DNA from: Lentisphaeria bacterium
GTDB lineage: Bacteria > Verrucomicrobiota > Lentisphaeria > Victivallales > Victivallaceae
Assembly (NCBI GenBank): GCA_017504435.1
Contig: JAFVRD010000002.1
Span: forward strand, 1 to 59,575
Reading direction: 5' to 3'
Length of the DNA: 59,575 nt
Positions 35,290 through 56,083 of this stretch are shown here, piece after piece (position 1 is the first letter of the stretch; every line of letters begins with the position of its first letter). Made by a program: the position numbers and the translations under genes. The notes beneath the pieces were generated by a model. That model saw only the letters and a list, made by a program, of their open reading frames with translations, searched no databases and had not been told where the DNA came from.

Positions 35290-35438
35290 ACTCTGACTCC
35301 TGTAACAGTTTGAATTCTTATCCGGTGAATATAACGCAAAATTTCTCAAAAATCAACCTTTTATCAATAAAAAATGAGATTTTTTGAAAAAATATCTTAT
35401 TGTATCATTTTTATTCTTTTTTTCTCATCTTCCCCCGC

Positions 35439-35472: not shown

Positions 35473-35510
35473 ACGGGTCAATTTGGATAACAGACGGAGG
35501 ACATGGAAAC

Positions 35511-36422: not shown

Positions 36423-36424
36423 AT

Positions 36425-37798: not shown

Positions 37799-37810
37799 AG
37801 GAATATTATT

Positions 37811-38605
37811 ATGCCGAACTTACTCATTCATACTGATGTGAAACAGGGGTACAATCCGGTTTTCGCGCTGGGCGAATACAACATGGTATTGACCCGTTTC
37901 GGGATCGTACAGCTGACTCAGGGAACTTCCTGGAGCGGCAATACCGGTGATTTTGAAATGGCGATCGTTACGCTCGGCGGAAAATTTGCCGCCGCCGGAG
38001 ACAACTGGGAATTTGCGGAAGTCGGCGGACGTAAAGATGTCTTTTCCGGCAAACCCCACACCCTTTACCTGCCGCGCAATACCAAATTCACCTTGACGGC
38101 ATTGACAGATTGTGATTTCGCGGTCAACGAATCCCCCGCGACCCGCGACACTGCCAGACCGACGGTCATCACCCCGGAAATGACCCGTACCATCTCCATC
38201 GGCAGAGACAACTTTACCCGTGCCGCAACGATCATGCTCGATGAAAAATTTGATTCTGAACACTTCTACATCGGCGAAGGCATGATCCCGTCCGGAAACT
38301 GGTCAGGTTATCCCCCGCACCGGCACGATTTTGATGATCTGCCCGGTGAAATCGATATGGAGGAAACTTATTTCTACCGCTTCGATCCCCAGCAGGGATT
38401 CGGCATCCAGAAAGTTTACAAAACCGACGGTTCCATTGATGAAACCTATACCGTCAAAAACAACGATACTGTTGCCATTGCCGAAGGATATCATCCGCTT
38501 TGCGGCGCACCGGGTTATCAAATGTATTATCTCTGGACGATGTGCGGCAAAGTCAACCGCGGTCTGATCTCCGCCAAAGATCCGGCACATGATTGGGTGA
38601 AATGA
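37811..38605 (+). CDS. iolB: IolB-like 5-deoxy-glucuronate isomerase
   Basis: The 264-residue bicupin has the IolB signature GNWSGYPPHRHDFDD...EETYFYRFDPQQGFGIQKVY and, later, AEGYHPLCGAPGYQMYYLW, with His and Glu metal ligands. In inositol catabolism IolB isomerises 5-deoxy-glucuronate to 5-dehydro-2-deoxy-gluconate. The other early inositol genes (iolG, iolE, iolD) are absent here, so it may serve a related acid. It lies 12 bases after the isomerase gene with an AAGGA site. Confidence 0.85.
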   Translation: MPNLLIHTDVKQGYNPVFALGEYNMVLTRFGIVQLTQGTSWSGNTGDFEMAIVTLGGKFAAAGDNWEFAEVGGRKDVFSGKPHTLYLPRNTKFTLTALTDCDFAVNESPATRDTARPTVITPEMTRTISIGRDNFTRAATIMLDEKFDSEHFYIGEGMIPSGNWSGYPPHRHDFDDLPGEIDMEETYFYRFDPQQGFGIQKVYKTDGSIDETYTVKNNDTVAIAEGYHPLCGAPGYQMYYLWTMCGKVNRGLISAKDPAHDWVK

Positions 38606-38606
38606 C

Positions 38607-40115
38607 ATGAGCGAAAAAGATCTGCTGCTGGGTATCGATTTCGGTACCGGCGGCTGTAAAGTTACCGCCATCACCACCTGCGGCAGACTGGCAGGAGAAG
38701 CGTCAGTGGAATATCCCACTGAATACGCTCATCCCGGCTGGTCGGAACAACTCCCGGAAGATTGGTACAAGGCGATGTGTTCAGCTCTGCAGACATTGTG
38801 GAGCAAAGGTGTTGACCCGGCACAGGTCGCGGCTCTGGCTTTTGACGGTTCCACACATAATGCGGTTTTGCTGGATGCCGCCATGCGTCCGGTTCGCAAA
38901 ACCATCATGTGGACCGACCAGCGCAGTGCCGCTGAATGTGCTTTTCTGAAAGAAAATTACGGGGAAAAAATCTTTGCCACTGCATACCAGATGCCGACGC
39001 CGACCTGGACACTGCCCCAGATGCTCTGGCTGAAAAAAAATGAACCGGAAGTTCTGAAACAGACCCGGCACATTCTTTTTGTCAAAGATTATGTCCGCTA
39101 TCTGGTCACCGGCGAAGCTGCCACTGACTATATTGAAGCACAGGGAACACTTTTCTTTGATATGAAAAAGATGCAGTGGTCGGAAGAACTTGCCGCATTG
39201 GCAGGTATTTCTGCAGATATGCTGCCGGAACTGATCCGTCCCACTGACCGTACCGGCAGTGTGACGATCCAGGCGGCAAAAGATACCGGATTGCCGGTCG
39301 GCACTCCGGTAGTTTGCGGCACCTCGGATTCTGCCGCCGAAGATTACGGTGCCGGTGCGGTCGCACCGGGAGACTGCATCATCAAACTTGCCACTGCCGG
39401 AAATGTCAATGTGATGACCGATCTGCCTCATCCTGATCCGGGAATGCTTACTTATTCACACGTCGTACCGGGAATGTGGTATTCGGTGGCGGCGACCAAT
39501 GCCGCCGCCCGCTGTCAGCGGTGGTTCCGGGATCTGATGTGTCAGGAGGAGATCGCCAGAGCCGAAGCAATGGGAGTCAAAGCCTTTACCTTGATGGATG
39601 AACTTGCCGCCGCTTCCCCGGCGGGAGCAAACGGAGTGATGTTCCATCCGTATTTGCAGGGTGAACGCTCCCCGTACTGGGATCCGAAATTGCGTGCCAG
39701 CTTTACCGGAGTGTCCATTGCCTCAACCAAAGGTGACTTCATCCGGGCGATTTGTGAAGGAGTGGCATTCTCTCTGCTGGACTGCTACGGTCAGATCGAA
39801 AAAGCCGGTCTGCCGGTCAATCAGATATTCCTGATCGGCGGAGGAGCCCGCAGTGAATTGTGGAGCAAAATCGTCTGTAACGTATTCGATCTGCCGGTGC
39901 AAATTCCTTCTCCGGCGGATGCTTCATTCGGTGCGGCACTGATTGCCGGTACCGGAGTGGGGATCTTCCGCAGCAGCATGGATGCAATCCAGAGGTGTCT
40001 GACCATTGAACGCCACTTGAGTCCGGATCGCAATGCGGCGGAACAATACCGGAAATTGTTTACCGAATACCGGGAGATCCATGATGCGCTCGCCCCGGTT
40101 TATGCAAGAAGATAA
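38607..40115 (+). CDS. FGGY-family carbohydrate kinase, xylulokinase-like
   Basis: The 502-residue protein begins LLLGIDFGTGGCKV (ATP-phosphate site) and has the WTDQR and FDGSTHNAVLLD regions and FLIGGGARSELWSKIVCNVF, all typical of FGGY kinases. Xylulokinase is the nearest named relative. The presence of a second kinase beside PfkB suggests two phosphorylation steps or two substrates. It starts 1 base after the iolB stop. Confidence 0.9.
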   Translation: MSEKDLLLGIDFGTGGCKVTAITTCGRLAGEASVEYPTEYAHPGWSEQLPEDWYKAMCSALQTLWSKGVDPAQVAALAFDGSTHNAVLLDAAMRPVRKTIMWTDQRSAAECAFLKENYGEKIFATAYQMPTPTWTLPQMLWLKKNEPEVLKQTRHILFVKDYVRYLVTGEAATDYIEAQGTLFFDMKKMQWSEELAALAGISADMLPELIRPTDRTGSVTIQAAKDTGLPVGTPVVCGTSDSAAEDYGAGAVAPGDCIIKLATAGNVNVMTDLPHPDPGMLTYSHVVPGMWYSVAATNAAARCQRWFRDLMCQEEIARAEAMGVKAFTLMDELAAASPAGANGVMFHPYLQGERSPYWDPKLRASFTGVSIASTKGDFIRAICEGVAFSLLDCYGQIEKAGLPVNQIFLIGGGARSELWSKIVCNVFDLPVQIPSPADASFGAALIAGTGVGIFRSSMDAIQRCLTIERHLSPDRNAAEQYRKLFTEYREIHDALAPVYARR

Positions 40116-40151
40116 CAACCAATCAACCTTTTTGTTTAAGGAGAAAACAAA

Positions 40152-41606
40152 ATGCTTTCAAGCAAAGACAACTACATGTACGAGATGATCCGTACCGAAT
40201 TGACCGACGCTGTCGGTGAAGAATTCGTCGGCACCGGAAATGCCGATAAATTCGGTCACTCCGTGGACTACTACTGGATCCCGGAAATGTGGCACGATCG
40301 CGGCATGCCGACTCCGAAACCGGATTTCGTTGTCCATCCAGGCAGTGCCGAAGAGGTTTCCAAAGTGATGAAAATCGCCAACCATTACCATATTCCGGTA
40401 GTGCCGTGGGGCGGTGGTTCCGGTTCTCAGGGCGGTGCGCTGCCGGTTTACGGCGGTATCATCCTGGATATGAAACGGATGAATAAATTTATCGGTATCG
40501 ACAAAGAATCCCTGACCGTCACCTGCCAGACCGGTATGATCGCACGTCATCTGGAGTGGCGGTGCAATAAAGAGGGCTTCTCCACCATGCATTTGCCGGC
40601 ATCCATTGCCTGCGCCACCATCGGCGGATTCCTGGCTCACCGCGGTACCGGCGTGCTCTCCACCAAATACGGCAAAATCGAAGATATGGTCATGTCTCTG
40701 GAAGTAGTTACTCCGACCGGAGAGATCATCCGTACTCTGCCGGTTCCCCGTCACGCTTCCGGTCCGGATCTGACCATGCTTTTCCTCGGCAGCGAAGGTA
40801 CTTTGGGCGTGATCACCGAAGTGACTCTCAAAGTCCATCCGGAACCCGAAGCCCGCGAATTCCGCGCCTATATCTTCAAAGATTTCCACACCGCCATGAG
40901 TGCCGGTGCCGAATTGATGCGCAGCCGTCTGCAGCCCTGTGCGATCCGTCTTTACGATGAAGAAGAGACGATCCACCATGTCCGCAGAGTTTTCGGCATG
41001 GAACTGGACAAAGGAGCATATCTGGTATTCGGTTTCGACGGTCCTGCCGATATCGTTGAATGTCAGATGCGCCGCGCCAGAGCGATCATGGAAGAAAAAT
41101 ATCACGGCAAAGACCTCGGCAGCAAAGGCGGAGATCTGTGGTGGCAGAATAAATACAAATTTTTCTACCCGCCGTTCATGTTCCACATCCCGCAGGCATT
41201 CGGCACGCTGGACACTGTGGCGACATTTGCCAATATTGAAAACGTCTATCATGCCATGAAAAAAGTGGTCAACGAAAACTTCCCGCAAGCCCGTTTCATC
41301 GGTCACTTCTCACATTGGTATGAATGGGGCTGCATGCTCTATGCCCGTTTCATTTTTGAAGGTGAAAACGTTCCGGAAGATCCCGCCGAAGCCGCGGCTC
41401 TCTATAACCGGGTCTGGGATATGGCGATCCGTGCCGCTATCGCCAACGGCGGTGTTATCAATGAACACCACGGCGTCGGTCTGAAACTCGGACGGCTGAT
41501 GAAAGAGTTGTACGGTCCTGCGATGCCGGTGCTGGAAGGCATCAAAAAACAGCTCGACCCCAACAACATTATGAATCCCGGCAAATTAGGTTTCAAAGGA
41601 ATTTAA
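40152..41606 (+). CDS. FAD-binding 2-hydroxyacid dehydrogenase, GlcD-like
   Basis: The 484-residue flavoprotein has the FAD_binding_4 region (PWGGGSGSQGGALPVYGGIILDM, GGFLAHRGTGVLSTKYG, GSEGTLGVITEVTL) and a C-terminal FAD-oxidase domain with NEHHGVGLKLGRLMK and NIMNPGKLGF. Relatives oxidise glycolate, D-lactate or other 2-hydroxy acids and pass electrons to a partner. The gene next door encodes a cysteine-rich partner 2 bases away. An AAGGAG site supports the start. Confidence 0.92.
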   Translation: MLSSKDNYMYEMIRTELTDAVGEEFVGTGNADKFGHSVDYYWIPEMWHDRGMPTPKPDFVVHPGSAEEVSKVMKIANHYHIPVVPWGGGSGSQGGALPVYGGIILDMKRMNKFIGIDKESLTVTCQTGMIARHLEWRCNKEGFSTMHLPASIACATIGGFLAHRGTGVLSTKYGKIEDMVMSLEVVTPTGEIIRTLPVPRHASGPDLTMLFLGSEGTLGVITEVTLKVHPEPEAREFRAYIFKDFHTAMSAGAELMRSRLQPCAIRLYDEEETIHHVRRVFGMELDKGAYLVFGFDGPADIVECQMRRARAIMEEKYHGKDLGSKGGDLWWQNKYKFFYPPFMFHIPQAFGTLDTVATFANIENVYHAMKKVVNENFPQARFIGHFSHWYEWGCMLYARFIFEGENVPEDPAEAAALYNRVWDMAIRAAIANGGVINEHHGVGLKLGRLMKELYGPAMPVLEGIKKQLDPNNIMNPGKLGFKGI

Positions 41607-41608
41607 TC

Positions 41609-42646
41609 ATGAATATCGACAAATATACTGACGCCATCAAGAACTGCCGTTTCTGCTTCATGTGCCGCCACCTCTCCGGTATCGGCAATGTGACTTTTAC
41701 CGAAGCTGACACCCCCCGTGTCCGCGCTTCCATGATCTACGGTGTGACCATGGATCCGGAAAAAATGGCAGATAAAGACTTTATTGACACGCTTTACCGT
41801 TCTGATCTGTCCCGTGCCTGCTGTTTTCACTGCGTAAACCACTACGATGAAAACTCTCTGAATATCGCCATGCGTACCGATCTGGTGGAAAAAGGACTGG
41901 CTCCGGATTATGCAAAAGCAATCGCTGAAAACCTGAAATCCTCCAGCAATTGGGAAATTTCCGGCGCAGCCGAGGTGCTGTATTTCACCGATCGTTATAC
42001 GCTGCAGACCGGTACAGTCGCACCGGCGTTTGATGCGATCATGAAAAAAGCCGGTATCAATTATGCGACCGTGTCCGGCGGATGCATCGGCAGAGCGTTG
42101 AAAGTTCTCGGCTTTGCTCAGGATGCCAAAGCTGCAGCGGAAAAATTCGTCAGCACAGTCAAAGCCGCCGGAGCGAAAACCCTGGTGGTCAGCAATCCTG
42201 CCGCTTACGAACTGCTGAAAAACGATTGCGCTGAATTCGGCATTGAAGTGCCGTTTGCCGTCATGCACACCTCCGAATATATCCTGTCACTGGGATTGAA
42301 AGCTGCCAAAGCTGCCGGAGATATCTATTATCTGGAAAGCGATTATCTGAAAAATTACAACGATAATCTCCCCTTCCCGCGCCAGCTGCTCGCAGCGGTC
42401 AACGCCAATATCAAACCTTTCGGAACCAATAACGAAGAATCCTACACCTGCGGTGAAGGTGCGGTTCTGCTTCCGGAAATCGACGAAACCCTCGTGGCGA
42501 AACTGGCGGCATATATCGCCGATCGCGCCGATGATCCTGCTAATGACAAGATCGTGGTCGCCTCTCCGTATACCAAAATTTTCCTGAGCAAATATACCAA
42601 ACTTAATGTGGCTACTCTGGAAGAAGTGGTTGCCGAGGTGCTCTGA
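41609..42646 (+). CDS. Cysteine-rich Fe-S protein, GlcF/HdrD-like partner
   Basis: The 345-residue protein has CxxCxxC at 13-19 (NCRFCFMCRH), then CC-x-x-C at 71-75, so at least one 4Fe-4S cluster is likely. Later Cys in SGGCIGR and ESYTCGEGAV recall the CCG-type domains of GlcF and HdrD, though the classical CCG motif is not clear. With the GlcD-like protein next door it probably forms a membrane-linked dehydrogenase. Confidence 0.75.
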   Translation: MNIDKYTDAIKNCRFCFMCRHLSGIGNVTFTEADTPRVRASMIYGVTMDPEKMADKDFIDTLYRSDLSRACCFHCVNHYDENSLNIAMRTDLVEKGLAPDYAKAIAENLKSSSNWEISGAAEVLYFTDRYTLQTGTVAPAFDAIMKKAGINYATVSGGCIGRALKVLGFAQDAKAAAEKFVSTVKAAGAKTLVVSNPAAYELLKNDCAEFGIEVPFAVMHTSEYILSLGLKAAKAAGDIYYLESDYLKNYNDNLPFPRQLLAAVNANIKPFGTNNEESYTCGEGAVLLPEIDETLVAKLAAYIADRADDPANDKIVVASPYTKIFLSKYTKLNVATLEEVVAEVL

Positions 42647-43473
42647 TGGCTCTGGTAACAATGAAAGAAATGCTCATCGCGGCGCGTAAAGAAAAACGCG
42701 CCGTGGGAGCATTCAATGTCGCCAATTATGAAACGGCACGGGCGGTTCTGCAGGCGGCTGAACAGGAAAAACAACCGGTGATCATCCAGCTGTATATGCG
42801 GCTGTTTGATTCAAACAAAGCCTATGATATCGCCGGATTGCTCATCCGTCTCGCCAACCGTGCCGATGTGCCGGTTGCGATCCATCTGGATCACGGCAAT
42901 ACGGTCAAGCAGGTCAAAGATGCTTTGGCATGGGGATATACCTCGGTAATGTACGACGGTTCCAGACTGCCGTTTGAAGAAAACGTCCGCAATACCGCAT
43001 TCTGCGTCCAGTATGCCAAGAGTTTCGGAGCCTCTGTGGAAGGTGAGATCGGTCATGTTGCCCAGGGTGATGAGACCGCACTGACTGATGTGGAAGAAGC
43101 CGTCGCATTTGCCGGACAGACCGGGGTGGATGCACTGGCGGTTTCCATCGGGACGGCTCACGGTTATTACAAAAGTGAACCGAAACTGGATATCCCGCGC
43201 TGTCAGGCGATCGCCGATGCACTGCCGGAAGTACCGCTGGTACTGCACGGCGGTTCAGGAACGCCGCTGGAAGATGTGCGGAAATCCATTGCCGCCGGTA
43301 TTGCCAAAATCAATATCGCCACCGAATATCAGGATACTTATTTGAAAAGTTCCCGCAAAGAATTGGAACTGCTGGATGGTAAATTCCTTCCGGTAGATAA
43401 ATTCTTCGATCCGGTGGTCGATGCATGCGCGGCACACGCCGCCAGATTGATCCGGTTTTTCGCCGGCAAATAA
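42646..43473 (+). CDS. Class II fructose-bisphosphate aldolase-like, IolJ/GatY-like
   Basis: The 275-residue protein has the zinc site HLDHG at 80-84, SVEGEIGHVAQGDE, SIGTAHGYYK and VLHGGSGTP, all class II aldolase motifs. The family includes FBP, tagatose-bisphosphate and IolJ aldolases; the natural substrate cannot be chosen by sight. Coupled to IolB and a PfkB kinase it would cleave a phosphorylated acid or ketose to two three-carbon units. Its ATG shares one base with the previous stop. Confidence 0.9.
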   Translation: MALVTMKEMLIAARKEKRAVGAFNVANYETARAVLQAAEQEKQPVIIQLYMRLFDSNKAYDIAGLLIRLANRADVPVAIHLDHGNTVKQVKDALAWGYTSVMYDGSRLPFEENVRNTAFCVQYAKSFGASVEGEIGHVAQGDETALTDVEEAVAFAGQTGVDALAVSIGTAHGYYKSEPKLDIPRCQAIADALPEVPLVLHGGSGTPLEDVRKSIAAGIAKINIATEYQDTYLKSSRKELELLDGKFLPVDKFFDPVVDACAAHAARLIRFFAGK

Positions 43474-43587: not shown

Positions 43588-45924
43588 TCAGCAGAAAAAT
43601 TTGACCTTGGCTCCCCATGCTTCGCGGTGATCATAAGTGGGCAGACCATCGACGACATGCAGCAGCAGATAATTGTATCCGGCGTCGACCTCGATCGGGA
43701 ACCAGAGCGGATGCATAAATTCAGCCTCCATCAACGGGGGGATCTCTAATACTTTTTTACCGTTGATAAAACCGTATCCGCCGTCGCTGAGCATGGCACA
43801 ACACATGGCTTTCCCGGATTTTTCAGCGAAAAATCTGATTTGCAGATACGCTCCGCAATATCTGGTTTTACAATAAAAGCGTGCCAGATCATAATAACCA
43901 TCCCGATCTATCCGTATTTCTCTGGCGATATCCCGGAACGCCATCGGCTCAAGTGTTTCCGGATGTTCTGTTTCTGTATCGCTTACGGTATATGCGGAAA
44001 GGATCGGCAGCTGTGTCCGTTTCAATCCATCCGGAAATGCCGTCAAACGGGTTTCAGTAGCCCCGAATGGAACCAGATGCAGCAGTGTTTCCTCTTTTTC
44101 AGGAGTGCAGAAAAGCGGTACTTGCGGAGTGTAACGCTGCTGATCGAGTTCGGCGAATGCGCCCGGAACACGCCGGGCGGAGATCTGCAGCAATTCCGGC
44201 GGTGCATCAAAGCCATATTTTTCAGCGTTGACATTGGCAATGACTCTGGCGGCGGTTTGCGGAGCGACCGCATAGTTCCATGCCGAAACCGGTTCCATGA
44301 TCAGCGGAGTGAAACGTTTTTCCGGTTCTTCTTTGCGGCACACGTTTTCAACCGGCAGGGAATATACCAGCGCACCACGCTCAAACCAGCTCCACTGGCG
44401 GTCAGAACACTGGCGGACATCAAGTGCAAAATCAAGGACAAGTTTATCGTTGTTCCGCAATTTTGTCTGCAAAAATTCACCCTTTATATTATCCGGAAGC
44501 TCAAGAGTTTCGCCGTTGAGTTTGATTTTCACCCCGCTGCACCATTGTGGTATGCGCCATGAGAACGGCAATTCGCCGTCACCGGCAAATCGGCATTCAA
44601 AAGAGATTTCCCCTTTGAATGGATATTCGGTATGCTGAATGATCTGATATGATTTGCCCTGATAAATGCCGCTGACATCGCACGGTCCGAAACAAACTGC
44701 CGCCGGGGCACCATTTTCATCGGCCATCCACATCCGGCTGACAAAATTCGGCATTGCCCGGTGAACATTGCCGGGACAGCAGGCTGCGAAATGATCCGGC
44801 CGGTACTGACGCAGCGGAGCCTGTCCGAACAGGAAAGAACTGCTGTTGGAAAACGGCGTTGCCAAAACCTGATTGGGAGCAGACAAATACTGCAATGCGG
44901 AAAAATCTTTGGTAACAGCACCCGGCAAAGCATTGTAGGCAATTTTTTCCGCCTGATCGGCATATTTTCCGCCGCCGCCTGCCATCAGGAAAAATCCCAG
45001 TGAATAGAGGGCATCGGAAATAACACAGGTTTCGTAACCGGTTTCCGGATCACGTCCGAAAGCATGTTCCACCGAGCATGGCACTCCGGAAATCTGTCCG
45101 TGCATATCCATGACCAACTGCCACGCCCGGCATGCCGCATCAAAATAACGTTTATCACCGCCTGCCATATAAAGCATGACCGGCAATTTGATCTCTTCGC
45201 TTAAAGTCACACCATGGAAAATTATGTTGTGATAATTTTCCAAAACGTTCATCGTCAACGCCTCCGAGGCATAATTTTTGTCCTGATGAGTATTGAACAT
45301 ATCATACGCCTGAAATGCTTTTGCAATCAGCGAATCATCTCCGGTACGCGCGGCAATATCAAGCAATCCTTCGATATTGGTGATGTTACGGCTGCCGTCA
45401 CCGATCTCGGCAGCGGAAACCTGCCGGTAATGCTCATGAAATGCGTCCAGCACATTTTCATCACCGGTGACATCCAAATACGCCCGGACTGCCTTGTAAA
45501 ACACCCCCATCGGCCATTCTGAAGAGTATTTATAACACTCGCCGCCCAAGCGGCCGCCGATGTGGTGAGCAAGCAGATAATCCAGATTGCGTTTGAAAAA
45601 GCCGGTCATCTCTTCATTGCCGGTAAGCAGACCGAGCCGCAGCAGTCCATCGAGCATGTACCCGGTTTGCTCATAGGGCCACCAACGGTTGGGGCCCGGA
45701 ACCGGACAGGGCTGTCCGCGGTAATCGAGTTCCCGGAATTCAGCCTGAATGACCCCCTCCCAGCAGCAGGTATTAAAAGGATATTTCTGCTCCTTGACAT
45801 TCCCGGAAAGTCCCGACACCTGACGATCCAGAAATTCCCGGATGAAATCGTGCGGTTTGATTGTATTCAACGGCAATTCGTGGAGTTTGACTGTAACTGT
45901 ATGAATTTTTTTTTGACTGCTCAT
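43588..45924 (-). CDS. GH127-like beta-L-arabinofuranosidase
   Basis: The 778-residue protein matches the GH127/146 (DUF1680) fold. Its (alpha/alpha)6 barrel region carries GYETC (Cys300) and the motif CCPGN with Cys382-Cys383, which would hold the zinc and the cysteine nucleophile. It likely removes L-arabinofuranose from plant side chains. No signal peptide is seen, so it may be cytoplasmic. A GAGGTG site and an AraC operator plus promoter lie upstream. Confidence 0.88.
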   Translation of the reverse strand: MSSQKKIHTVTVKLHELPLNTIKPHDFIREFLDRQVSGLSGNVKEQKYPFNTCCWEGVIQAEFRELDYRGQPCPVPGPNRWWPYEQTGYMLDGLLRLGLLTGNEEMTGFFKRNLDYLLAHHIGGRLGGECYKYSSEWPMGVFYKAVRAYLDVTGDENVLDAFHEHYRQVSAAEIGDGSRNITNIEGLLDIAARTGDDSLIAKAFQAYDMFNTHQDKNYASEALTMNVLENYHNIIFHGVTLSEEIKLPVMLYMAGGDKRYFDAACRAWQLVMDMHGQISGVPCSVEHAFGRDPETGYETCVISDALYSLGFFLMAGGGGKYADQAEKIAYNALPGAVTKDFSALQYLSAPNQVLATPFSNSSSFLFGQAPLRQYRPDHFAACCPGNVHRAMPNFVSRMWMADENGAPAAVCFGPCDVSGIYQGKSYQIIQHTEYPFKGEISFECRFAGDGELPFSWRIPQWCSGVKIKLNGETLELPDNIKGEFLQTKLRNNDKLVLDFALDVRQCSDRQWSWFERGALVYSLPVENVCRKEEPEKRFTPLIMEPVSAWNYAVAPQTAARVIANVNAEKYGFDAPPELLQISARRVPGAFAELDQQRYTPQVPLFCTPEKEETLLHLVPFGATETRLTAFPDGLKRTQLPILSAYTVSDTETEHPETLEPMAFRDIAREIRIDRDGYYDLARFYCKTRYCGAYLQIRFFAEKSGKAMCCAMLSDGGYGFINGKKVLEIPPLMEAEFMHPLWFPIEVDAGYNYLLLHVVDGLPTYDHREAWGAKVKFFC

Positions 45925-45969: not shown

Positions 45970-45998
45970 AATATAGCCGGACATTGGAAATGAAACAA
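45970..45998 (-). promoter_or_regulatory. Promoter of the GH127-like gene
   Basis: On the minus strand TTGTTT (45998-45993) and TATATT (45975-45970) are 17 bases apart. The weak -35 box suits an activator-dependent promoter. The operator at 46006-46036 ends 7 bases upstream. Confidence 0.65.
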
Positions 45999-46005
45999 GA
46001 CGGAT

Positions 46006-46036
46006 GCCGTCAAAAATTAGCACAATACCGTCAAAT
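46006..46036 (-). promoter_or_regulatory. AraC-type operator upstream of GH127
   Basis: Half-sites GCCGTCAAA (46006) and ACCGTCAAA (46027) are direct repeats 21 bp apart. The whole 31 bp matches the reverse complement of 47095-47125 at 28 of 31 positions. It overlaps the stop codon of the AraC gene and lies 81 bases from the GH127 start. Confidence 0.8.
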
Positions 46037-46912
46037 ATTTTTAGCGATATCCCGACGGTATTCCCGCGGGGTCTGTCCGAATTCGCGGCGGAACAGGCGG
46101 GCAAAGTAATTTCCATCGGTAAAGCCGGCTTCTCTGGCAATATCCGCCAGATTGCGGCTGCTGTCAAGCAATTCACCGGCGGCATGCCGGAGACGGATGC
46201 TCTGGATATAACCGACCGGAGTCATCCCGGTGGCAAGCCGGAAGTGACGGAGAAAGGTTGATTCTGACATATTCGCACGCCGTGCCAGCTGACTTAAAGA
46301 GAGCTTGTCTTTGAAGTGGCGGCTGATGTAATCCATGCAATCTGCCATGCGGGATTGATCGTCCTGCATCGCAATTTTTTCGTTGGCATCATACCCGGCA
46401 AGCAGCAGCGGAATAGCTTCACAGAATGCCCCGAAAACAGAAAGATTATAGCATATTTGCCGGGATCGCTGGATTTCCCACGCCCGGAATAAAATCGTTT
46501 TCAATTGCTCAAGAATATCTGCCGGCAGAGAAAACTTGGGATAAAAACGGTTTTTACGGTAATAATCCGGATGGATGACAAATAATGCTGAAAATCCGGG
46601 ATTGCGGTAAATTTCCCGGTATGGTATCGGAAGCTGATCAAAAATGAAAATAAGATTCATCAGTTGCTTGTTACATTCATCCGTGTAACAATGCGGTGCT
46701 CCGGCAGGAATGACGACCACATCTCCGGCATGAAGCCGTACCGAACTGAATTCGGTAAGATAAGTGGCTTCGCCGCTGAACATGATCGCTATTTCGGTAA
46801 ATTCATGAGAATGAAAACCCAGTTCAGAGCTGGATTCCGTATAGCGGACCCGGATGGGAAGCTTATTTTTCTCAAAAACATCAGCCGAAGTCAGAATATT
46901 ATTTTTACTCAT
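46031..46912 (-). CDS. AraC-family transcriptional activator
   Basis: The 293-residue protein has an N-terminal cupin sensor (HSHEFTEIAIMFSGEATYL, HAGDVVVIPAGAPHCY) and a C-terminal double HTH (LSLSQLARRANMSESTFLRHF and LADIAREAGFTDGNYFARLFRREFGQTPREYRR). It lies between GH127 and GH4, and identical operator layouts precede both, so it almost certainly activates both. A GGGGGT site lies before its ATG. The inducer is probably a plant sugar. Confidence 0.9.
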   Translation of the reverse strand: MSKNNILTSADVFEKNKLPIRVRYTESSSELGFHSHEFTEIAIMFSGEATYLTEFSSVRLHAGDVVVIPAGAPHCYTDECNKQLMNLIFIFDQLPIPYREIYRNPGFSALFVIHPDYYRKNRFYPKFSLPADILEQLKTILFRAWEIQRSRQICYNLSVFGAFCEAIPLLLAGYDANEKIAMQDDQSRMADCMDYISRHFKDKLSLSQLARRANMSESTFLRHFRLATGMTPVGYIQSIRLRHAAGELLDSSRNLADIAREAGFTDGNYFARLFRREFGQTPREYRRDIAKNI

Positions 46913-46940
46913 ACTTACCCCCGGTAAACGGTGCTGTTTT

Positions 46941-46970
46941 ATAATATTTGATATGACTGTTTCAGTACAA
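46941..46970 (-). promoter_or_regulatory. Candidate promoter of the araC gene
   Basis: On the minus strand TTGTAC (46970-46965) and TATTAT (46946-46941) are 18 bases apart, 28 bases before the start. An inverted repeat ATGACT/AGTCAT (about 46952-46979) overlaps it. Confidence 0.5.
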
Positions 46971-47094
46971 AAAAGTCATACCGAACCGTCCAGAGACTAA
47001 TATACTTGCGGATCCGTTTTTTTCAAGCCGTTTTATATACGGTTGAAAAAAGCGATCCGGCGTGATAACGGCAAATTTTTCCTGCCTCAAAAGC

Positions 47095-47125
47095 ATTTGA
47101 CGGCATTGTGCTAATATTTGACGGT
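47095..47125 (+). promoter_or_regulatory. AraC-type operator upstream of GH4
   Basis: Half-sites ATTTGACGGC (47095) and ATTTGACGGT (47116) are direct repeats 21 bp apart. It matches the GH127 operator at 28 of 31 positions in the same orientation relative to the gene. It ends 7 bases before the -35 box and 81 bases before the start codon. Confidence 0.82.
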
Positions 47126-47132
47126 ATCAACC

Positions 47133-47161
47133 TTGTCATATCCGGTATTTTTAACTATATT
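47133..47161 (+). promoter_or_regulatory. Promoter of the GH4-GH78 operon
   Basis: TTGTCA (47133-47138) and TATATT (47156-47161) are 17 bases apart. The same -10 box and spacing precede GH127. Confidence 0.72.
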
Positions 47162-47206: not shown

Positions 47207-48568
47207 ATGGCAAAAATCGTGTTGGTCGGTGCTGGCGGAGTAATATTCAGCCAGAATTTCATGAAAGATTTTCTGATGTCGGAACATCTGACAGATTCAA
47301 CTCTTACACTTATGGATATTGACCGTGAGCGTCTTGCCAATGCGGAAAAGATTTTTCACATGCTCGCCGCAGAGTTGAACTGCCCGGATCGCCGCATGGA
47401 AGCGACCACAGATCTCGAAGAAGCTCTCAGTGGTGCAGATTTTGTACTAACTATTTTCCGTTCCGGAACTCTTGAACACCAGCGTATCGAATACGAAATC
47501 CCCGCCGCTTACGGAGTGAAACTGGTTGTGGGAGATTCCATGGGGCCCGGAGGAATTTTCCGGGGATTGCGTACATTGAAAGATCTTTTCAAAGTCCTGA
47601 ACACCATGGAAAGAGTCTGTCCCGGAGCCATGCTGCTGAATTATGTCAACCCGATGTCCATAAACACCATTGCGCTCTCCCGCTGTGCAAACACAGTGAA
47701 AGTGTATGGTTTGTGCCACAGCGTGCAGAGTTTGCGCAGCACACTGGCGCAATATCTGAATGTCCCGGCGGATGAATTGGAATATTTTGCCGCCGGAGTG
47801 AACCATCTGGCATTTGCCCTGAAACTTTCCCACCTGGGCAGAGACCTTTATCCGGAATTGCGCAAATTGATCGACGATCCCGGAATTTATCATCAGCAGA
47901 AAGTACAATTTGAAATACTGCGTCACTTCGGCTATTATCCGACCGAAGGCAGCGGACACAACAGTGAATATCTGCCGTTTTTCCGCAAACGTGAAGATCT
48001 GCTGAAAAAATTTTGCGGCGTGACCTGGGAACTGCCGGATGATGATATCAAGTGGTCTGCAGTGCAATCCGGTGAACCCGGCGCATCCGTGGAATGCTGC
48101 CGGCTGCTCCAGATCCGCAATGAAAAAAATATCGCCATGTATCTCAATGGAACTAAAAAATTTGATCTGAAACGCAGTCATGAATACGGCATGCAGATCA
48201 TTGAGGCGATTCTTGCCAATAAACTGTTTCAAGCCAACTTGAATGTGATGAATCATGGCCTGATCCCCAATTTGCCCGCACATGCCGCCGTTGAAGTTCC
48301 CTGCCTGATCGACGGCAGCGGCATACATCCGTGCCAGATACCGGACTTCCCGGAACATCTGGCGGCATTGGACAGAAATATGACCGGAGCGCAAATACTG
48401 GCAGCACAGGGAGCGGTTTCCGGTAAACGTGAAGACATTTTTCACGCACTGGCGGCAGATCCGCTGACCGCAGCGGTTTTGTCTCTGGATGAAATAAAAG
48501 AGATGTGCGGAAAAATGTTTGATTCTCTCGCCGATCAGATAGATGACAGGTTTCAAAAAAATGATTGA
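47207..48568 (+). CDS. GH4-family glycosidase, alpha-galacturonidase/galactosidase-like
   Basis: The 453-residue protein has the NAD-binding start KIVLVGAGGVIFSQ and the Mn2+ ligands Cys170-His171 (GLCHSVQ) and His200 (GVNHLAF). GH4 enzymes cleave by an NAD-dependent redox cycle. LplD-type alpha-galacturonidases and MelA-type alpha-galactosidases are the best guesses, and the neighbours point to pectic glycans. It lacks a signal peptide. A TTGGAGG site 7 bases upstream fixes the start. Confidence 0.9.
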   Translation: MAKIVLVGAGGVIFSQNFMKDFLMSEHLTDSTLTLMDIDRERLANAEKIFHMLAAELNCPDRRMEATTDLEEALSGADFVLTIFRSGTLEHQRIEYEIPAAYGVKLVVGDSMGPGGIFRGLRTLKDLFKVLNTMERVCPGAMLLNYVNPMSINTIALSRCANTVKVYGLCHSVQSLRSTLAQYLNVPADELEYFAAGVNHLAFALKLSHLGRDLYPELRKLIDDPGIYHQQKVQFEILRHFGYYPTEGSGHNSEYLPFFRKREDLLKKFCGVTWELPDDDIKWSAVQSGEPGASVECCRLLQIRNEKNIAMYLNGTKKFDLKRSHEYGMQIIEAILANKLFQANLNVMNHGLIPNLPAHAAVEVPCLIDGSGIHPCQIPDFPEHLAALDRNMTGAQILAAQGAVSGKREDIFHALAADPLTAAVLSLDEIKEMCGKMFDSLADQIDDRFQKND

Positions 48569-51047
48569 TTTACTTCAAATTGATTATCAGGACGGCAATG
48601 CCGTCGTGTCCGGAAATGCTCCGATACGGTTTTCGTGGCGGGCATTGACCGGACAGGACAATTGCCAAATCCGGATATTTGAAGCATCCGGCGGCAAAAT
48701 CTGTGCGGAAAGTCCCGTTATTTCCGGCAACAGGAACTTCTGGACTTATGACGGAGATGCACTGAGTGCCGAAACTTCATACTGCTGGGAAGTGGCTCTT
48801 AACGACGGCAAATATACTGCCCGGTCAGATTTCCGTACCGCACCGCGATTCGCTGACAGCAAGTGGATCGCGGAACCGGCAGGACGGGAATCCCAGCATG
48901 ACCGGATCTCGGTATTCCGGAAAGATTTTGAATTAACGGAAGTGCCGCAGGATGCCATTTTGCATATCACGGCACTGGGTTTGTACCGGGCGGAAATCAA
49001 CGGAGTCCGGGTGGGGGACAGGTTTATGACTCCGGGCTGGACAGATTATTTCCACCGGGTCCCCTATCAATCGTTTGATGTGACAACTCTGCTGCATCCG
49101 GGCCGCAACCGTATTGAAATCGTCCTTGCCGGCGGCTGGTATTGCACCCGGATCGCGACCATGTGGCTTGCTGAGGATGAAATTTACGGGGATACCCCGG
49201 CATTGCGTCTGGAGTTGCGCGGAACGTTCTCCGGCAGACGCAAATTGATAACCGGTTCTGATGAAACATATCTGGTCTCCGCAGAAAGTGAATTTGTCTC
49301 ATCTGATATTTACGACGGTGAAACGGTCGACTATTCCCGCGTCCGGAAAAATTTTCAGCTCTGTCGCACCGTGGAACGCAATGTAAAAATATTTCCCAAT
49401 CCGATGCCGGAAGTCCGGACGATCCGCCGGATAGCTCCGGTCTCTGTCCGTAAATGGAGCGATGACCGTTATATCATAGACTTCGGGATCAATCTTACCG
49501 GCAAAGAAGAATTGTATTTGAAACTGGCAAAAGGTCAGACCGTTACGGTAACTCATGCTGAAGTTCTGAATGATGAGGGTGATGTTTATACCGAAAATTT
49601 ACGCAGCGCGCAGGCTTGCAGCAGTTTCACCGGAGATGGAACGGAACGCACCATGAGTGTGGAATTCACTTTTTTCGGTTTCCGTTACATCGCGGTGGAA
49701 GGGGTGACTGAATTTACCGCCGATATGGTAACGGCATTGCAGATCCACACTCCGATGCGGAAAAGCGGCAGTTTCCGCTGTTCCAATGAATTGCTCAACA
49801 AGCTGTATGACAATATCATCAACGGTCAGAGATGCAATTATCTGGATGTTCCCACCGATTGTCCCCAGCGCGATGAAAGACGGGCATGGCTGGGTGATGC
49901 CCAGGTATTCATGCCGGCAGCTGCATTTAATTTTGATGTGACGGCATTCATGCGCCGGTGGCTGGAGGATGTGGATCTGTGCCGGAACGAACATGGTGAA
50001 TATCCGCCTTATGCGCCGTTTCATTCATCCAGAAAACAATTCCGTGCCGGAGCCGGCTGGGCAGATGCAGGTATCATTTGTCCGGCGGAATTGTACCGCT
50101 ACTACGGAGATACAGCTTTTTTGACCTCCCATTATGAAGCGATGTATCAGTATATGATGCGCCAGATCGAAACTGCGGATAATTTCATCCGCTGTGTGGA
50201 TATTTACCGTGACTGGCTGAATCTGGGGGCGGATACGCCGCCGGAATTGATATGTACAGCGTATTTTGCCTGGGATGCCGCAGTGATGAGCAAAGTCGCC
50301 CGGGTACTGGGTAAAACCGGTGATGCCGAATTCTTTGCTGAACTTTATGAAAACATCTGTACGGCATACCGCAAAAAATTCATCAATGCCAAAGGGATGC
50401 TCGCGGTGGTGACCCAGACAGCAGCGGTGCTGAGTCTTGAATTCGGACTGCTCCGGGGCAAAGATGCTGAAATGGCGGCCAAAATGCTGCGTAATGACGT
50501 TGTCAATCACCGGGCAATGCATCTTTCCACCGGATTTCTCGGTACGCCCCGGCTGCTTCATGCGCTGGCGCGCAACGGTTATCCTGACATCGCCTATAAA
50601 CTGCTGGAGCAGACAACATATCCGTCCTGGCTCTACACAGTGCTGCACGGAGCAACGACGATGTGGGAAAGATGGAACAGCTGGGCGGAATTCGACGGTT
50701 TTGCGGACAGCAATATGAATTCATTCAATCATTATGCGTATGGTGCAGTCGGTGAATTTATGTTCAATTATGTCGGCGGCATCTCCCCGGTATGGGAATA
50801 TCCCGGTATGGAAAAAGTATTGATCGCGCCCCGCCCCGGAGGCACACTTACTTTTGCGGAGGTCGAATACGATTCCCGGCGCGGCAGAATTTGTTCATCA
50901 TGGTACCGCAACGGTCAGGAAACCACATACCGGATAAAGATACCTCCCAATACCATTGGCATAATTGATATCGAAGGTATGGACAAGCATGAAGTATCCG
51001 CAGGTGAATATGAGTATATTATTGCAACGAAAGGAGATATGGCATGA
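48561..51047 (+). CDS. GH78 alpha-L-rhamnosidase
   Basis: The 828-residue protein has the GH78 order: N-terminal beta domains, then the (alpha/alpha)6 barrel. LDVPTDCPQRDERRAWLGDAQVF contains the conserved acidic residues, and the C-terminal part has TTMWERWNSW and SFNHYAYGAVGEF. It removes rhamnose from RG-I, flavonoids or similar glycans. No signal peptide. I start at 48561, overlapping the GH4 stop; the ATG at 48543 has no RBS. Confidence 0.93.
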   Translation: MIDLLQIDYQDGNAVVSGNAPIRFSWRALTGQDNCQIRIFEASGGKICAESPVISGNRNFWTYDGDALSAETSYCWEVALNDGKYTARSDFRTAPRFADSKWIAEPAGRESQHDRISVFRKDFELTEVPQDAILHITALGLYRAEINGVRVGDRFMTPGWTDYFHRVPYQSFDVTTLLHPGRNRIEIVLAGGWYCTRIATMWLAEDEIYGDTPALRLELRGTFSGRRKLITGSDETYLVSAESEFVSSDIYDGETVDYSRVRKNFQLCRTVERNVKIFPNPMPEVRTIRRIAPVSVRKWSDDRYIIDFGINLTGKEELYLKLAKGQTVTVTHAEVLNDEGDVYTENLRSAQACSSFTGDGTERTMSVEFTFFGFRYIAVEGVTEFTADMVTALQIHTPMRKSGSFRCSNELLNKLYDNIINGQRCNYLDVPTDCPQRDERRAWLGDAQVFMPAAAFNFDVTAFMRRWLEDVDLCRNEHGEYPPYAPFHSSRKQFRAGAGWADAGIICPAELYRYYGDTAFLTSHYEAMYQYMMRQIETADNFIRCVDIYRDWLNLGADTPPELICTAYFAWDAAVMSKVARVLGKTGDAEFFAELYENICTAYRKKFINAKGMLAVVTQTAAVLSLEFGLLRGKDAEMAAKMLRNDVVNHRAMHLSTGFLGTPRLLHALARNGYPDIAYKLLEQTTYPSWLYTVLHGATTMWERWNSWAEFDGFADSNMNSFNHYAYGAVGEFMFNYVGGISPVWEYPGMEKVLIAPRPGGTLTFAEVEYDSRRGRICSSWYRNGQETTYRIKIPPNTIGIIDIEGMDKHEVSAGEYEYIIATKGDMA

Positions 51048-51880
51048 GATACATCAAATGGACATTTATTGTGTTTTTGCTGACTGCAGGATTTCAGATG
51101 CGGGCGATCGAGGTTGATATTCTTGAATTGCGGCAGCCGAATCTGATCCAAAATCCGGGCTTCGGCAATCTGCAGCGGCCGAAGTGGCTGCCGGAACATT
51201 GGCGGTTTGAGAATTGCTCGCAAAAAGCCGGTTTTGAATACAATTTCAAAAACGGGGAAGCATATTTATTCACCTCCGGACGTCTGTTTGGTTATTTTCT
51301 TCAAAGCGGCATCCCGGTAGAGGAAGGCAAACGCTATTATATCGGTGCCAAAGTCAAATTGAATACCACCACTTTGATGTGGATACGCACTACGGATTAT
51401 CATGACGGTCTGGATACTCAGAATCACCCCCGGAGCAATACGAATTTGTTTGCCTGTCTGCTGCGTCCGGAACAGGGCAAAGAACTTTTTGATGAATTGC
51501 AATATTTTATCAATCCCGGGCTGTTGTTGAAATTCGGAGATAAAGATTGGACATTATGCGAATCCGAATTAGTCGTTCCCAAAGGCAAAGGGGTAAAAAC
51601 CTATGCTTACCGGATCGGTTCTCTCGGCGGCGAAGAAGGCTGGCTCCGGGTGAAAGAACCGGTATTCCGGCTGGCGGAAAGACATCTGACTGTAACGGTG
51701 CGGGGCGAAAAATGCCGGGAATTGGTGCTTTTTCACAGCAACGGCAGCGTCATGGAACGGCACAAATTAAATCCGGAAACGGCATCTCAAAAAGTGGAAC
51801 TGATCCTGCCGTCCACGATTTCGAGTTACTATATAGAGATCATTGATAATAACAATCAAAAATACCGGAGAAGTTTATAA
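51044..51880 (+). CDS. Secreted CBM-like protein
   Basis: A signal peptide (about 1-21) is followed by a beta-sandwich-like region beginning NLIQNPGFGNL...PKWLPEHWRF, the usual opening of CBM4/9-type domains. The 278-residue protein has no catalytic motif that I recognise. The start overlaps the GH78 stop by 4 bases, with AAAGGAG upstream. It is probably a glycan-binding partner of the next gene. Confidence 0.72.
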   Translation: MRYIKWTFIVFLLTAGFQMRAIEVDILELRQPNLIQNPGFGNLQRPKWLPEHWRFENCSQKAGFEYNFKNGEAYLFTSGRLFGYFLQSGIPVEEGKRYYIGAKVKLNTTTLMWIRTTDYHDGLDTQNHPRSNTNLFACLLRPEQGKELFDELQYFINPGLLLKFGDKDWTLCESELVVPKGKGVKTYAYRIGSLGGEEGWLRVKEPVFRLAERHLTVTVRGEKCRELVLFHSNGSVMERHKLNPETASQKVELILPSTISSYYIEIIDNNNQKYRRSL

Positions 51881-54312
51881 TGAAAAAATTTCTGACAGCT
51901 GCCGTTATATTTGCGGCCATATTGACTGGATTGGCGGTTCCGGCAGAGCAGCATCCGGCAGAATTTCCGTTCGCCGGCAACTCTCTCATCCGGGTGATCA
52001 ATGCCAAAACCGGTAAAATTCTTCACGGTAAATATGAAAACGGTGTTTTTACATGTACTTCTTTGCAAATAAGCATCAAGCCGGCAGCCATCGGCAAATA
52101 CTCTCTGGCAGAGATGCGTTTCGCAGTAAACAGTGATGAACGCTTCTTTCTGACCGTGGAAGTGGAGAAAAAAAATCTGGCGGCAGAAAATTTTTATAAT
52201 GGAAAAAATGTCTGCCGGGTGGAAAAAGATAAACACGAACACAAAACCATGCTGGATACCTTCCCGCTGGCGGCAATATGGAATAAACAGACCGGATTTG
52301 CCATCGGTATCGCTCCTACGACAGTGGCCTCCTATCTTTATTCATCATTTGATCCGGCAGATAAGAAATTCATCTACCGTACCCATGTTGTTGCCGACAA
52401 CAAAAGAGTACAGGATGTGGATGTCGTCGCCGCCGAATTTGAACCCGAATTCGGTCATTGGCAGGCATTGGAAAACTACTACGACGCCTACCCGTCATAT
52501 TTCCGTCCCCATCCCGGAGTGGATGAAAGGATCTACGGCGTTATGGGGTATTTTCTATCTGCGCATAAATCCCGGGATCTGGAAATCAACAGCGGACGCC
52601 ATTTTTCTCTGCAGCTGGAGTGGACATACGCACCGTTTGTGGAGGCCGGAAACTGGTATACCAACAAAGAGGACTGGCTTCAGGGCACTCATATTTGTAC
52701 CAACTATGATGCTTTACGCAAACACCGGGCAGTAACGTGGGATGAATACCATGCCGCCCGGGTCAAACAGTTTGAATCCGGAGACCGGCAGGCCTCTATG
52801 TATCATTATCTTCTGGTAAAAAGCATCAACCGCAAAGTCGCGGAGAAATTCAATGATGCCATCACCCGGGATGAATTGGGCAGAATATCCAAAAGCGACG
52901 GCATGCATCAGACCCCATGGGAAGTCAACAAAACCATAGCGGTCTTTCCCTATGGCTCAAAACTGCGGGAACATCTCGAACATGAAATCGCGGAAATAGT
53001 TGAAAATTATAAAGTTTCCGGTTTTGCTTTTGATATGGTCAATTACAATTTGAACAGTTATGCCCCCTCGCAGATCGAATACGCGGTCGGACGGGATTTT
53101 GATAAAAAATTTCAGGTATTTACTCCTGATACAGTCATTCCGATACCGTTTACCCGCTATATCCACTCTTTAAAAAGAGATAACAAAACGATGGGTGTTT
53201 TTGTGAATTTCGCATTCAACCGGATCGCGGCACACACCGCATTCGCGATCGACGGAGGAATGATCGAATGTACTCCGGATTTTGCGCTGGGCGCATCCAA
53301 AAACCTCCGGGTGCTTGCCGGACAGAAACCGCTGTCGTACTTCCTCGGCTTCGGGATCCGGTTCCACAACAAAGGTATCCGCTGGGGCGAAGTAAATACT
53401 CCGGAAAAAACCCGCGAAGTCGTGGATGGTCTGGCTTATTTTATGCTGTTCAACTGTTTACGTTACGGATATTCGCCCATGAACTGGAATCTGGAATACA
53501 AAGACCGCAACTTTTTCCAACCTTACATGCCGTTGATACTGCGGATCAAAAAAGCCGGGTGGCGTCCGGTCACTGCGGTACGCACGATACCTGAGAACGT
53601 GCCATTCTGGTTCGGCCGCTTCGGGAAAGGCGACGAAAGCGTCATCACCATCACCAATCCGGAACGGCATGCAGTCAGTGCGAAATTTTCCATCGTCAAA
53701 AAACATCTGGGCGAAGGCAAACTTGTCCCGGTGGTTCTGCATGGAAACGATGTCAAATTTACAGACAACGGCACTACTGTTGATTTTGAATACACCCTTG
53801 ATGCCAAAGGTATCCTGGCGATCGGGATGAAAGATGCCAAACGGGAAAATCAAACCCGCACCGTGGGAGATAAAGCAGCCATCGCCGCGATTTTCACTCC
53901 GGAAGATGCTGAAAAAAGCCGGGTGACAGCAGTCGTTCCCGAAGCCGGATTGAAAGTTCTGTATGATTTTATCGACCGTTATTATCCCTATGTCGCTGCC
54001 GCCAGAAAATACACCGGTAAACCTTTCTGCCGGGAACCGGGATTCATGGATGCCTCATTCAATGACATCTGGCGGATGCCGCTGGTAAAAAGTGCCGACG
54101 GGATAGCAGGTAAAAAAATCGTCATTGCCACTGCGGCACAGCTGCCGGAATTAAAGGCGGCGTTTGCCGATCTGCCGGACGGTGACGGTTTGATAGAATT
54201 GCGGGGTGAAACTCTTTACCTTACCGGCAAAAATGACTCTGCTGTCCGCCGGGCGGTGATGAGTTATCTGGAAATTCTTGATGAAGTTGAAAAAAACCGT
54301 AAAAAACGTTAA
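51880..54312 (+). CDS. Secreted TIM-barrel-like protein, unknown family
   Basis: The 810-residue protein has a signal peptide (about 1-21), a beta-rich N-terminal region, and a central part that looks like a TIM barrel. EIVENYKVSGFAFDMVNYN has an Asp at a typical strand end, and FAIDGGMIECTPDF follows. The C-terminus ends with two alpha/beta blocks (KKIVIATAAQLPELKAAF). I do not recognise the family. Its plan recalls the 1417-residue protein. Its ATG shares a base with the previous stop. Confidence 0.68.
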   Translation: MKKFLTAAVIFAAILTGLAVPAEQHPAEFPFAGNSLIRVINAKTGKILHGKYENGVFTCTSLQISIKPAAIGKYSLAEMRFAVNSDERFFLTVEVEKKNLAAENFYNGKNVCRVEKDKHEHKTMLDTFPLAAIWNKQTGFAIGIAPTTVASYLYSSFDPADKKFIYRTHVVADNKRVQDVDVVAAEFEPEFGHWQALENYYDAYPSYFRPHPGVDERIYGVMGYFLSAHKSRDLEINSGRHFSLQLEWTYAPFVEAGNWYTNKEDWLQGTHICTNYDALRKHRAVTWDEYHAARVKQFESGDRQASMYHYLLVKSINRKVAEKFNDAITRDELGRISKSDGMHQTPWEVNKTIAVFPYGSKLREHLEHEIAEIVENYKVSGFAFDMVNYNLNSYAPSQIEYAVGRDFDKKFQVFTPDTVIPIPFTRYIHSLKRDNKTMGVFVNFAFNRIAAHTAFAIDGGMIECTPDFALGASKNLRVLAGQKPLSYFLGFGIRFHNKGIRWGEVNTPEKTREVVDGLAYFMLFNCLRYGYSPMNWNLEYKDRNFFQPYMPLILRIKKAGWRPVTAVRTIPENVPFWFGRFGKGDESVITITNPERHAVSAKFSIVKKHLGEGKLVPVVLHGNDVKFTDNGTTVDFEYTLDAKGILAIGMKDAKRENQTRTVGDKAAIAAIFTPEDAEKSRVTAVVPEAGLKVLYDFIDRYYPYVAAARKYTGKPFCREPGFMDASFNDIWRMPLVKSADGIAGKKIVIATAAQLPELKAAFADLPDGDGLIELRGETLYLTGKNDSAVRRAVMSYLEILDEVEKNRKKR

Positions 54313-54335: not shown

Positions 54336-55118
54336 ATGCAAAAAAAACACTTCACTTTCATTGAAATGGTAATCGTTATTATTGTGTTGACCGGTTTGGC
54401 GGCGGTTATTATCCCTGCCTCGCTCCGGGCATCGGAAAAGGGACGGGCCGTTTCATGTACCGACCGCTTGAAAGCATGCGGTGCCGGTTACGCTGCTATG
54501 GCTAATGACAAAGAGGGGAAAGTGCTGCTTTACGGAGCCAAAGGACGGTTGTGGTACACCATGCTGGGCGGCTGGGCAAATGCGGAACAGTACCGGGTAT
54601 TGGGACGGGAAGATGTGGTAAAAAGCGCAGCACAGCGTCAATATTTCGGGCAGGGTTATCTGCCTGCGGATAAATTTCTGAACTCTTTCCGGTGTCCGGA
54701 TCAGCCGTTCGGCAGCGGTGATGCCCGTTATACACAGGTTTATGGTGCCGGAGTGAATACCAGTTTCGGTTCCCAGGGGATCACCGATGTGCTGAAACTC
54801 ACCGTGGACGGCGGTAATTTCTATGGCTACAATGTGCAAAACACCCGCAAACCGGAACAACGCATTATACTGGCTGATTCCGGTTATGCTGCGAAAAAAA
54901 TCCAACGTGGCGACATCAACTGGCACGGCAATGCGACCGGTTTCATGACCAGACACGATGGCAAAGCCAATGTACTGTTCCTGGATGGTCATGTCGGAGC
55001 TCTTGACGGCAACGGGATCGCGGATGCGATCAGTGCCTGCTCCGGGCGGCGTGATGTCAAAGTGTGTGTAATGGACAATGAATGGAAAGTGACCAAATAT
55101 TCGCTTTTCAGAAAGTGA
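54336..55118 (+). CDS. Pseudopilin-like protein with H-X9-DG tail
   Basis: The 260-residue protein begins [19 protein letters not shown], a prepilin signal with Phe+1 and Glu+5 but His rather than Gly at -1. Its C-terminal part has [15 protein letters not shown], where His and DG are nine residues apart, the H-X9-DG motif of Planctomycetes/Lentisphaerae prepilin-associated proteins. These may be surface or secretion components. An AAGGAGG site supports the start. It is close to the next gene (5 bases apart), a homologue. Confidence 0.82.
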
Positions 55119-55123
55119 TCATA

Positions 55124-56083
55124 ATGAAAATATCCCGCAAACAGAAATTTACTCTGATTGAATTGCTGGTGAGTGCAACTTGTCAAGTATGTGTTTTTCC
55201 GTTGTATTACCTCAAAAAAAATTATAAAAACTACACATCCTTACGTCCGACAGGGCGCACTTCACGCTTTTTTTGCATTTGCAAAAAAAGCTCTTCACAC
55301 CTTCACACCTTCACTCAATCGGCGTTTACGCTGATTGAACTATTGGTTGTGATCGCCATCATCGCGATTCTGGCAGCCATGCTTCTGCCTGCACTTCAGA
55401 GTGCCAGAACCCGGGCGCAAGCCGTAAACTGTACCAATTTGCTTGGACAAAACGGCAAAGCCATGGCCCAAATGAGCAATGCTCAGGATGGGGAAGTTTA
55501 TTTGCGCGGTGCAGATAATTTGTGGTACACCATGCTGGGTGGCTGGGATGATGTTTCGACCAGTAAAATTCTTGGTTCACAAGTAGTTATTTCCGATGAG
55601 AATCAAAAAAAATATTTTGGTTTGGGCTACATGCCGGCGGATAAGACTCTGGATTCTTTCCGTTGTCCATCTCTGCCGGTAAATACGGCGTACAATGGCT
55701 GGGAGCAGGTCTACGGTGCAGGCGTAAATACGTCTCACGGAGAACAGCACATCACCGATGTGGCACGGAAACAAGTCGGAACCAAACTTTTTCTCGGTTA
55801 TAAACTTGGCAGCATTTCCCACCCGTCTTTGCGGATATTACTGGGAGATTCCGGCTACATTGCCCAAAAAGCCCAGCGCGGTGATATGAATTGGCATGGT
55901 GCGCAGACCGGATTTGCCGTACGTCACAATGGCAAAGCCAACATCTTATTTGCCGACAGTCACGTCAGCAGTCATAATGGCGTGGAAATAGGTTATATGC
56001 TGGGTAAATATGCCCGTAATGATTATTTCGCTCTGGCGATAGATAATTCATGGGTGGGCAACCGCTATCCTTTGAAACAGTAA
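55124..56083 (+). CDS. Pseudopilin-like protein with duplicated signal and 59-residue insert
   Basis: The 319-residue protein is a homologue of the one just upstream ([36 protein letters not shown]). Its N-terminus has two FTLIELLV motifs. The first (residues 9-16) is followed by 51 unusual residues rich in Ser, Thr, Lys and Cys; the second starts a normal [17 protein letters not shown] helix. The H-X9-DG motif reads DS here. The insert is 177 bp and in frame. If the second motif is the working signal, the leader is about 67 residues. Start at 55124. Confidence 0.8.
55148..55347 (+). repeat. 177-bp insert between near-identical direct repeats
   Basis: Copies at 55148-55170 and 55325-55347 match at 19 of 23 bases, and the differences are mostly synonymous in FTLIELLV. 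The distance between them is 177 bp, exactly 59 codons. The DNA between is AT-rich and includes a 9-bp tandem (CTTCACACC) and the hairpin at 55266-55291. Loss of one repeat unit would restore a normal pseudopilin. Confidence 0.75.
55266..55291. repeat. 12-bp-stem palindrome within the insert
   Basis: GCTTTTTTTGCA (55266-55277) and TGCAAAAAAAGC (55280-55291) are perfect reverse complements around a TT loop. It is translated as part of the insert. Confidence 0.85.

Follow-up and report, generated by a model that had tools for sequence, protein, structure and literature searches.

AraC-family monomers carry two HTH motifs that read successive major grooves of DNA. At the Escherichia coli araI1-I2 operator the direct-repeat half-sites lie about 21 bp apart, and the proximal one meets the -35 element. 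Binding of AraC at araI2 recruits RNA polymerase to the araBAD promoter (PMC4760080). AraC-type rhamnose regulators of Bacillales, Bacteroides and Enterococcus recognise lineage-specific motifs in the form of a direct repeat with 21-bp periodicity, and the operators of RhaS and RhaR are inverted repeats of 17-bp half-sites (PMC3870299, published in 2013). The word 'Lentisphaera' was not found in the latter study, which does not mention the Lentisphaerota; nothing relevant to a Lentisphaerae AraC regulon was found in the literature searched, and targeted searches for papers on AraC class-II control with a 21-bp repeat returned none.

The locus described here lies in a window of 59,575 nucleotides (the whole stretch of DNA that was analysed), which is contig C5 of a 2.26-Mb genome, 95% complete, from an uncultured gut-type bacterium. 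Judged from its sequence, one AraC-type regulator very probably switches on two sets of plant-sugar-cleaving genes that flank it. The layout is the usual class-II arrangement of the AraC family and so, as far as sequence can tell, a sound instance, though an ordinary one, of a familiar type of control. As at araI1-I2 (pBAD), direct repeats about 21 bp apart stand just upstream of a promoter; however, the half-site sequence differs and the regulator misses the cut-off of the AraC equivalog profile. With the rhamnose regulators of the 2013 study it shares the AraC family, the 21-bp direct repeat and linkage to rhamnose or rhamnoside genes, although no rhamnose catabolic operon was identified beside the present araC gene. 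The protein resembles E. coli RhaS and RhaR in its best whole-length profile and in its sensor domain, whereas their half-sites are inverted and the present repeat is direct. The analysis yields a DNA-binding motif and promoter code, open to direct testing, for one AraC subfamily of uncultured Lentisphaerota, and indicates that a two-site reading made from raw sequence can be validated through comparative geometry alone.

The araC gene and its neighbours

The features of the locus are listed in Table 1. The regulator has the C-terminal two-HTH domain of the AraC/XylS family (Pfam HTH_18, 5.2e-26; HTH_AraC, 8e-21; both above curated cut-offs) and the N-terminal cupin sensor of its sugar-responsive members (Cupin_2 and AraC_binding, above cut-off). 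Its best whole-length NCBIfam profile is RhaS, at 96.6 bits, and with a subfamily profile the sensor domain gives a weak match to the solved RhaR structures 5u93 and 5u9e. A true RhaS (equivalog NF010028) is ruled out by the cut-off of 288 bits for that profile, as is an arabinose-operon AraC (NF007860), which is matched over the C-terminal half only at 65.2 bits against a cut-off of 208.

Table 1. Positions of the regulator, its predicted targets and their control elements in the window
Feature	Positions	Strand	Details
GH127-family glycoside hydrolase (778 aa), predicted target 1	43588..45924	-	Pfam GH127 catalytic and middle domains
GH127 promoter	45970..45998	-	-35 TTGTTT (45998-45993), 17 bp, -10 TATATT (45975-45970); ATG 45924
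Operator 1, faces GH127: TTTGACGG TATTGTGCTAATT TTTGACGG	46007..46035	-	exact CCGTCAAA-N13-CCGTCAAA in the + reading
araC-type regulator (293 aa)	46031..46912	-	cupin sensor domain, two-HTH AraC DNA-binding domain
Operator 2, faces GH4: TTTGACGG CATTGTGCTAATA TTTGACGG	47096..47124	+	exact CCGTCAAA-N13-CCGTCAAA in the - reading
GH4 promoter	47133..47161	+	-35 TTGTCA (47133-47138), 17 bp, -10 TATATT (47156-47161); ATG 47207
GH4 glycosidase (453 aa), first gene of predicted target operon 2	47207..48568	+	Pfam Glyco_hydro_4 and _4C
GH78 alpha-L-rhamnosidase (834 aa), predicted same operon as GH4	48543..51047	+	Pfam Bac_rhamnosid domains
278-aa protein, predicted GH4-GH78 operon	51044..51880	+	overlapping frames
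810-aa protein, predicted GH4-GH78 operon	51880..54312	+	family unassigned by Pfam

On the GH127 side the encoded enzyme gives a weak PDB match to the GH127 beta-L-arabinofuranosidase 4qjy. The GH4 protein scores 450 bits against the alpha-galactosidase subfamily PRK15076 (NCBIfam), just below the cut-off of 486, and the alpha-galacturonidase LplD (3fef) is among its PDB GH4 matches; its neighbour matches the rhamnosidase 3w5m at 1.4e-136. The 5' end of the GH78 gene overlaps the 3' end of the GH4 gene, and the later genes of the run overlap at their ends too. The next protein shows a weak similarity to CBM_4_9 (E 0.0066, below cut-off), and a Pfam profile search with the 810-aa protein returned no match. 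This gene pair, which possibly represents an undescribed polysaccharide-active protein, is kept in the genomes G001, G033 and G010 and also beside a 42% AraC relative in G015. Two adjacent and mutually related proteins with pseudopilin-like N-methylation or DUF1559 signals (54336-56083) end the GH4 gene run.

A separate cluster at 34576-43473 encodes a DeoR regulator on the minus strand, a PfkB kinase (IolC/ribokinase-like), a fucose-isomerase-C/sulfoquinovose-isomerase-like protein, IolB (234.7 bits, above cut-off), an FGGY kinase above the xylulokinase cut-off, a GlcD-like FAD oxidase, a class-II aldolase and a 345-aa protein with no Pfam match. No protein in the genome exceeds the IolD cut-off, so this IolB lies outside a standard inositol pathway. 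The cluster adjoins araC in G010 too.

Two matching predicted operators with the same promoter geometry

The two sites on either side of araC are identical at 28 of 31 positions when each 29-mer is extended by one base at both ends (27/29 as 29-mers), and in both the 8-bp cores are 21 bp apart. Each 31-mer is separated by 7 bp from its -35 hexamer and by 81 bp from the ATG (82 bp counted from the 29-mer), and 31 bp lie between core and TATATT at both promoters. The original prediction had been made in these terms (site length, identity, repeat spacing, the intervening araC gene, and distances of 7 bp from site to -35, 17 bp from -35 to TATATT and 81 bp from site to start codon), and every figure proved exact on recheck. 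The direct-repeat half-sites at 21 bp, with a proximal unit that runs into the -35 (which begins at unit base 17) at a fixed distance from the -10, are the features of a class-II, araI1-I2-like operator.

The repeated half-site had been taken to be the 8-bp CCGTCAAA, which is too short. When the two units of each site are compared, the copies are alike over positions 1-14 and not beyond, with the consensus TTTGNCGNTATTGTNCT. Because the match is good over these positions and fails later, the half-site is, from sequence, about 14-17 bp long. The plainest view of this long half-site is given by the drifted GH4 site of G010, in which TTGACGATATCGTGCT occurs twice at 21 bp. A half-site of this length would fit a monomer that reads successive major grooves with its two HTH motifs.

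Of 200 copies of the window generated with a first-order Markov model, none contained the exact pair. In pattern searches of the 2.26-Mb genome that allowed mismatches, the exact CCGTCAAA-N13-CCGTCAAA was found at the two window sites only, and the sole match with one mismatch (C12:25871) falls inside a panC-like coding frame. At up to three mismatches there were 139 matches against 133 for a reversed-pattern control, with no excess beyond the two sites, and a composite pattern that included the -10 box gave extra matches genome-wide only at three mismatches, which is chance level. Such a scan had been expected to fix the other members of the regulon; none emerged. What stands of a regulon read from sequence is thus local, namely the two neighbouring transcription units.

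Conservation of the geometry in the AraC subfamily

A search of 149 related genomes delimited a subfamily of 13 AraC genes in 11 Lentisphaerota genomes, at 40-100% identity and well separated from the next best AraC (35% or less). These genes carry 15 sites of like build, comprising an 8-bp core, 13 bp, a second core, 31 or 30 bp (13/15 and 2/15 sites, respectively) and a -10 element, which is TATATT in 11 of the 15. In 12 of 13 cases the structure stands directly beside the araC gene. Both sites are present in G001 (AraC 94% identical). G033 (89%) keeps the GH4 site and has no GH127 gene beside araC, and in G010 (72%) a diverged GH4 site is found 2.5 kb away from araC, with GH4 on one side and another GH127 gene (43%) on the other. 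The GH4 promoter spacing is kept in all three genomes. Conservation of the GH127 arm is known from two close genomes only, G000 and G001, in which its site was seen. Nine relatives with 40-44% AraC identity follow the same plan with other cores (TTTGTTGC, TTTGCCGN, TTTGATAG), and in these relatives the -35-like hexamer is not conserved.

In this 15-site comparison the core positions in the relatives were placed by eye. An automated grid test, run without any operator motif over 16 periods (15-30) and 28 offsets (48-75), ranked a period of 21 with an offset of about 60-63 first in the orthologues (z 4.9) and, separately, in the relatives (z 4.5). The same cell came first, weakly (z 3.4), at 69 distant AraC loci, drawn from other PVC bacteria, Firmicutes and further groups. 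A simple period count without the -10 box was noisy, with period 30 raised too, and the grid test was used instead. Since the same cell leads in all three sets, the geometry is, on this comparative evidence, a family rule and not a peculiarity of this locus.

In two genomes of the subfamily comparison, G008 and G067, the first genes after the operator (L041 1334-3799 and L042 8478-10946) lie upstream of GH78, and their products, of 821 and 822 aa, match no Pfam family.

A model for activation of both flanking units

The class-II layout, with the sites as operators of the adjacent AraC, had been proposed from the window itself and is supported by the 21-bp period and the 30-31 bp spacing, which are kept while the cores drift. 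The favoured reading, to which we assign a probability of roughly 0.86, is that the two sites are tandem-half-site operators of the AraC encoded between them and serve class-II activation of both flanking units. In this model the cupin domain would bind a sugar, the likeliest signal being L-rhamnose or a pectin oligosaccharide that contains rhamnose, and an AraC dimer would then occupy the two direct-repeat half-sites, which are two helical turns apart. Because the proximal half-site ends at the -35, it is proposed that the subunit bound there contacts RNA polymerase, at promoters whose -10 is good but whose -35 is poor or missing. GH127 would be switched on at one side and the GH4-GH78 operon at the other.

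A repressor could also act where the proximal half-site reaches the -35, with AraC blocking polymerase until an inducer releases it. This is unlikely, as a strong -10 at a fixed 30-31 bp combined with a weak or unconserved -35 is what an activator-dependent promoter needs; moreover, occupancy of araI2 has the opposite effect at araBAD (PMC4760080), and RhaS, RhaR and the Bacteroides AraC-type rhamnose regulator are all positive regulators (PMC3870299). Marginally less probable again is that the sites belong to a different regulator, whether some other AraC protein or a promoter-bound repressor, and adjoin araC by coincidence. The genome does encode other AraC-family proteins, one of them at 33768-34592 in the window, where the DeoR regulator (34576-35349) is also found, but throughout the 11 genomes the site structure goes with this AraC subfamily and adjoins the gene in 12 of 13 cases, and the pattern searches yielded no additional copies near the genome's other regulators. 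That the two promoters arose by recent duplication of DNA and carry no regulatory meaning is scarcely credible despite the near identity of the sites, because the likeness breaks off after the operator and returns only with the -10 box (18/60 over the upstream 60 bp, 14/31 in the spacer to the -10 and 11/39 in the leader), which points to a likeness kept by selection and not to a fresh copy, and because relatives whose AraC is 72-94% identical still carry the sites.

The candidate signal

GH78 adjoins 10 of the 13 subfamily araC genes, compared with 9 of the 69 distant AraC loci (Fisher p 8.6e-6; 3.3e-4 with orthologues collapsed). This adjacency, the RhaS profile as the best whole-length match (though far under its cut-off) and the weak match of the sensor domain to RhaR make a rhamnose-type signal the more likely, and L-rhamnose or a rhamnose-containing pectin fragment or oligosaccharide is favoured with moderate confidence; GH4 and GH127 by themselves do not point to rhamnose. 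Arabinose, rhamnose and galacturonate had been named as the sugars to try, a list that amounts to guesswork; among these rhamnose gains support whereas arabinose and galacturonate are unsupported. A rhamnogalacturonan fragment is a plausible form of the signal, because the GH4 protein comes near the alpha-galactosidase profile and has LplD among its PDB relatives.

Predicted operator and araC stop codon

As originally noted, one operator overlaps the end of araC: the distal core of the GH127-side site contains its stop codon, TGA (46033-46031). At 8 of the 13 loci araC and its target share a strand, with the target downstream, and there the operator is at the stop codon or within 12 bp of it. 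Four loci have the stop inside the operator (the window, G001, G062 and G005); in four others (G028, G123, G015 and the second copy of G001) it precedes the operator by 8-12 bp. As the stop codons sit at different operator positions, the overlap appears to have more than one origin. It may reflect mere compactness. As a long shot, with the target operator and promoter built into, or directly onto, the araC 3' end in this subfamily, an occupied operator could act as a roadblock on the araC transcript and couple target activation to down-tuning of the regulator mRNA or to its 3'-end formation. The stops in the window (46031-46033) and in the loci L036, L044 and L045 are TGA, TGA, TAA and TAG.
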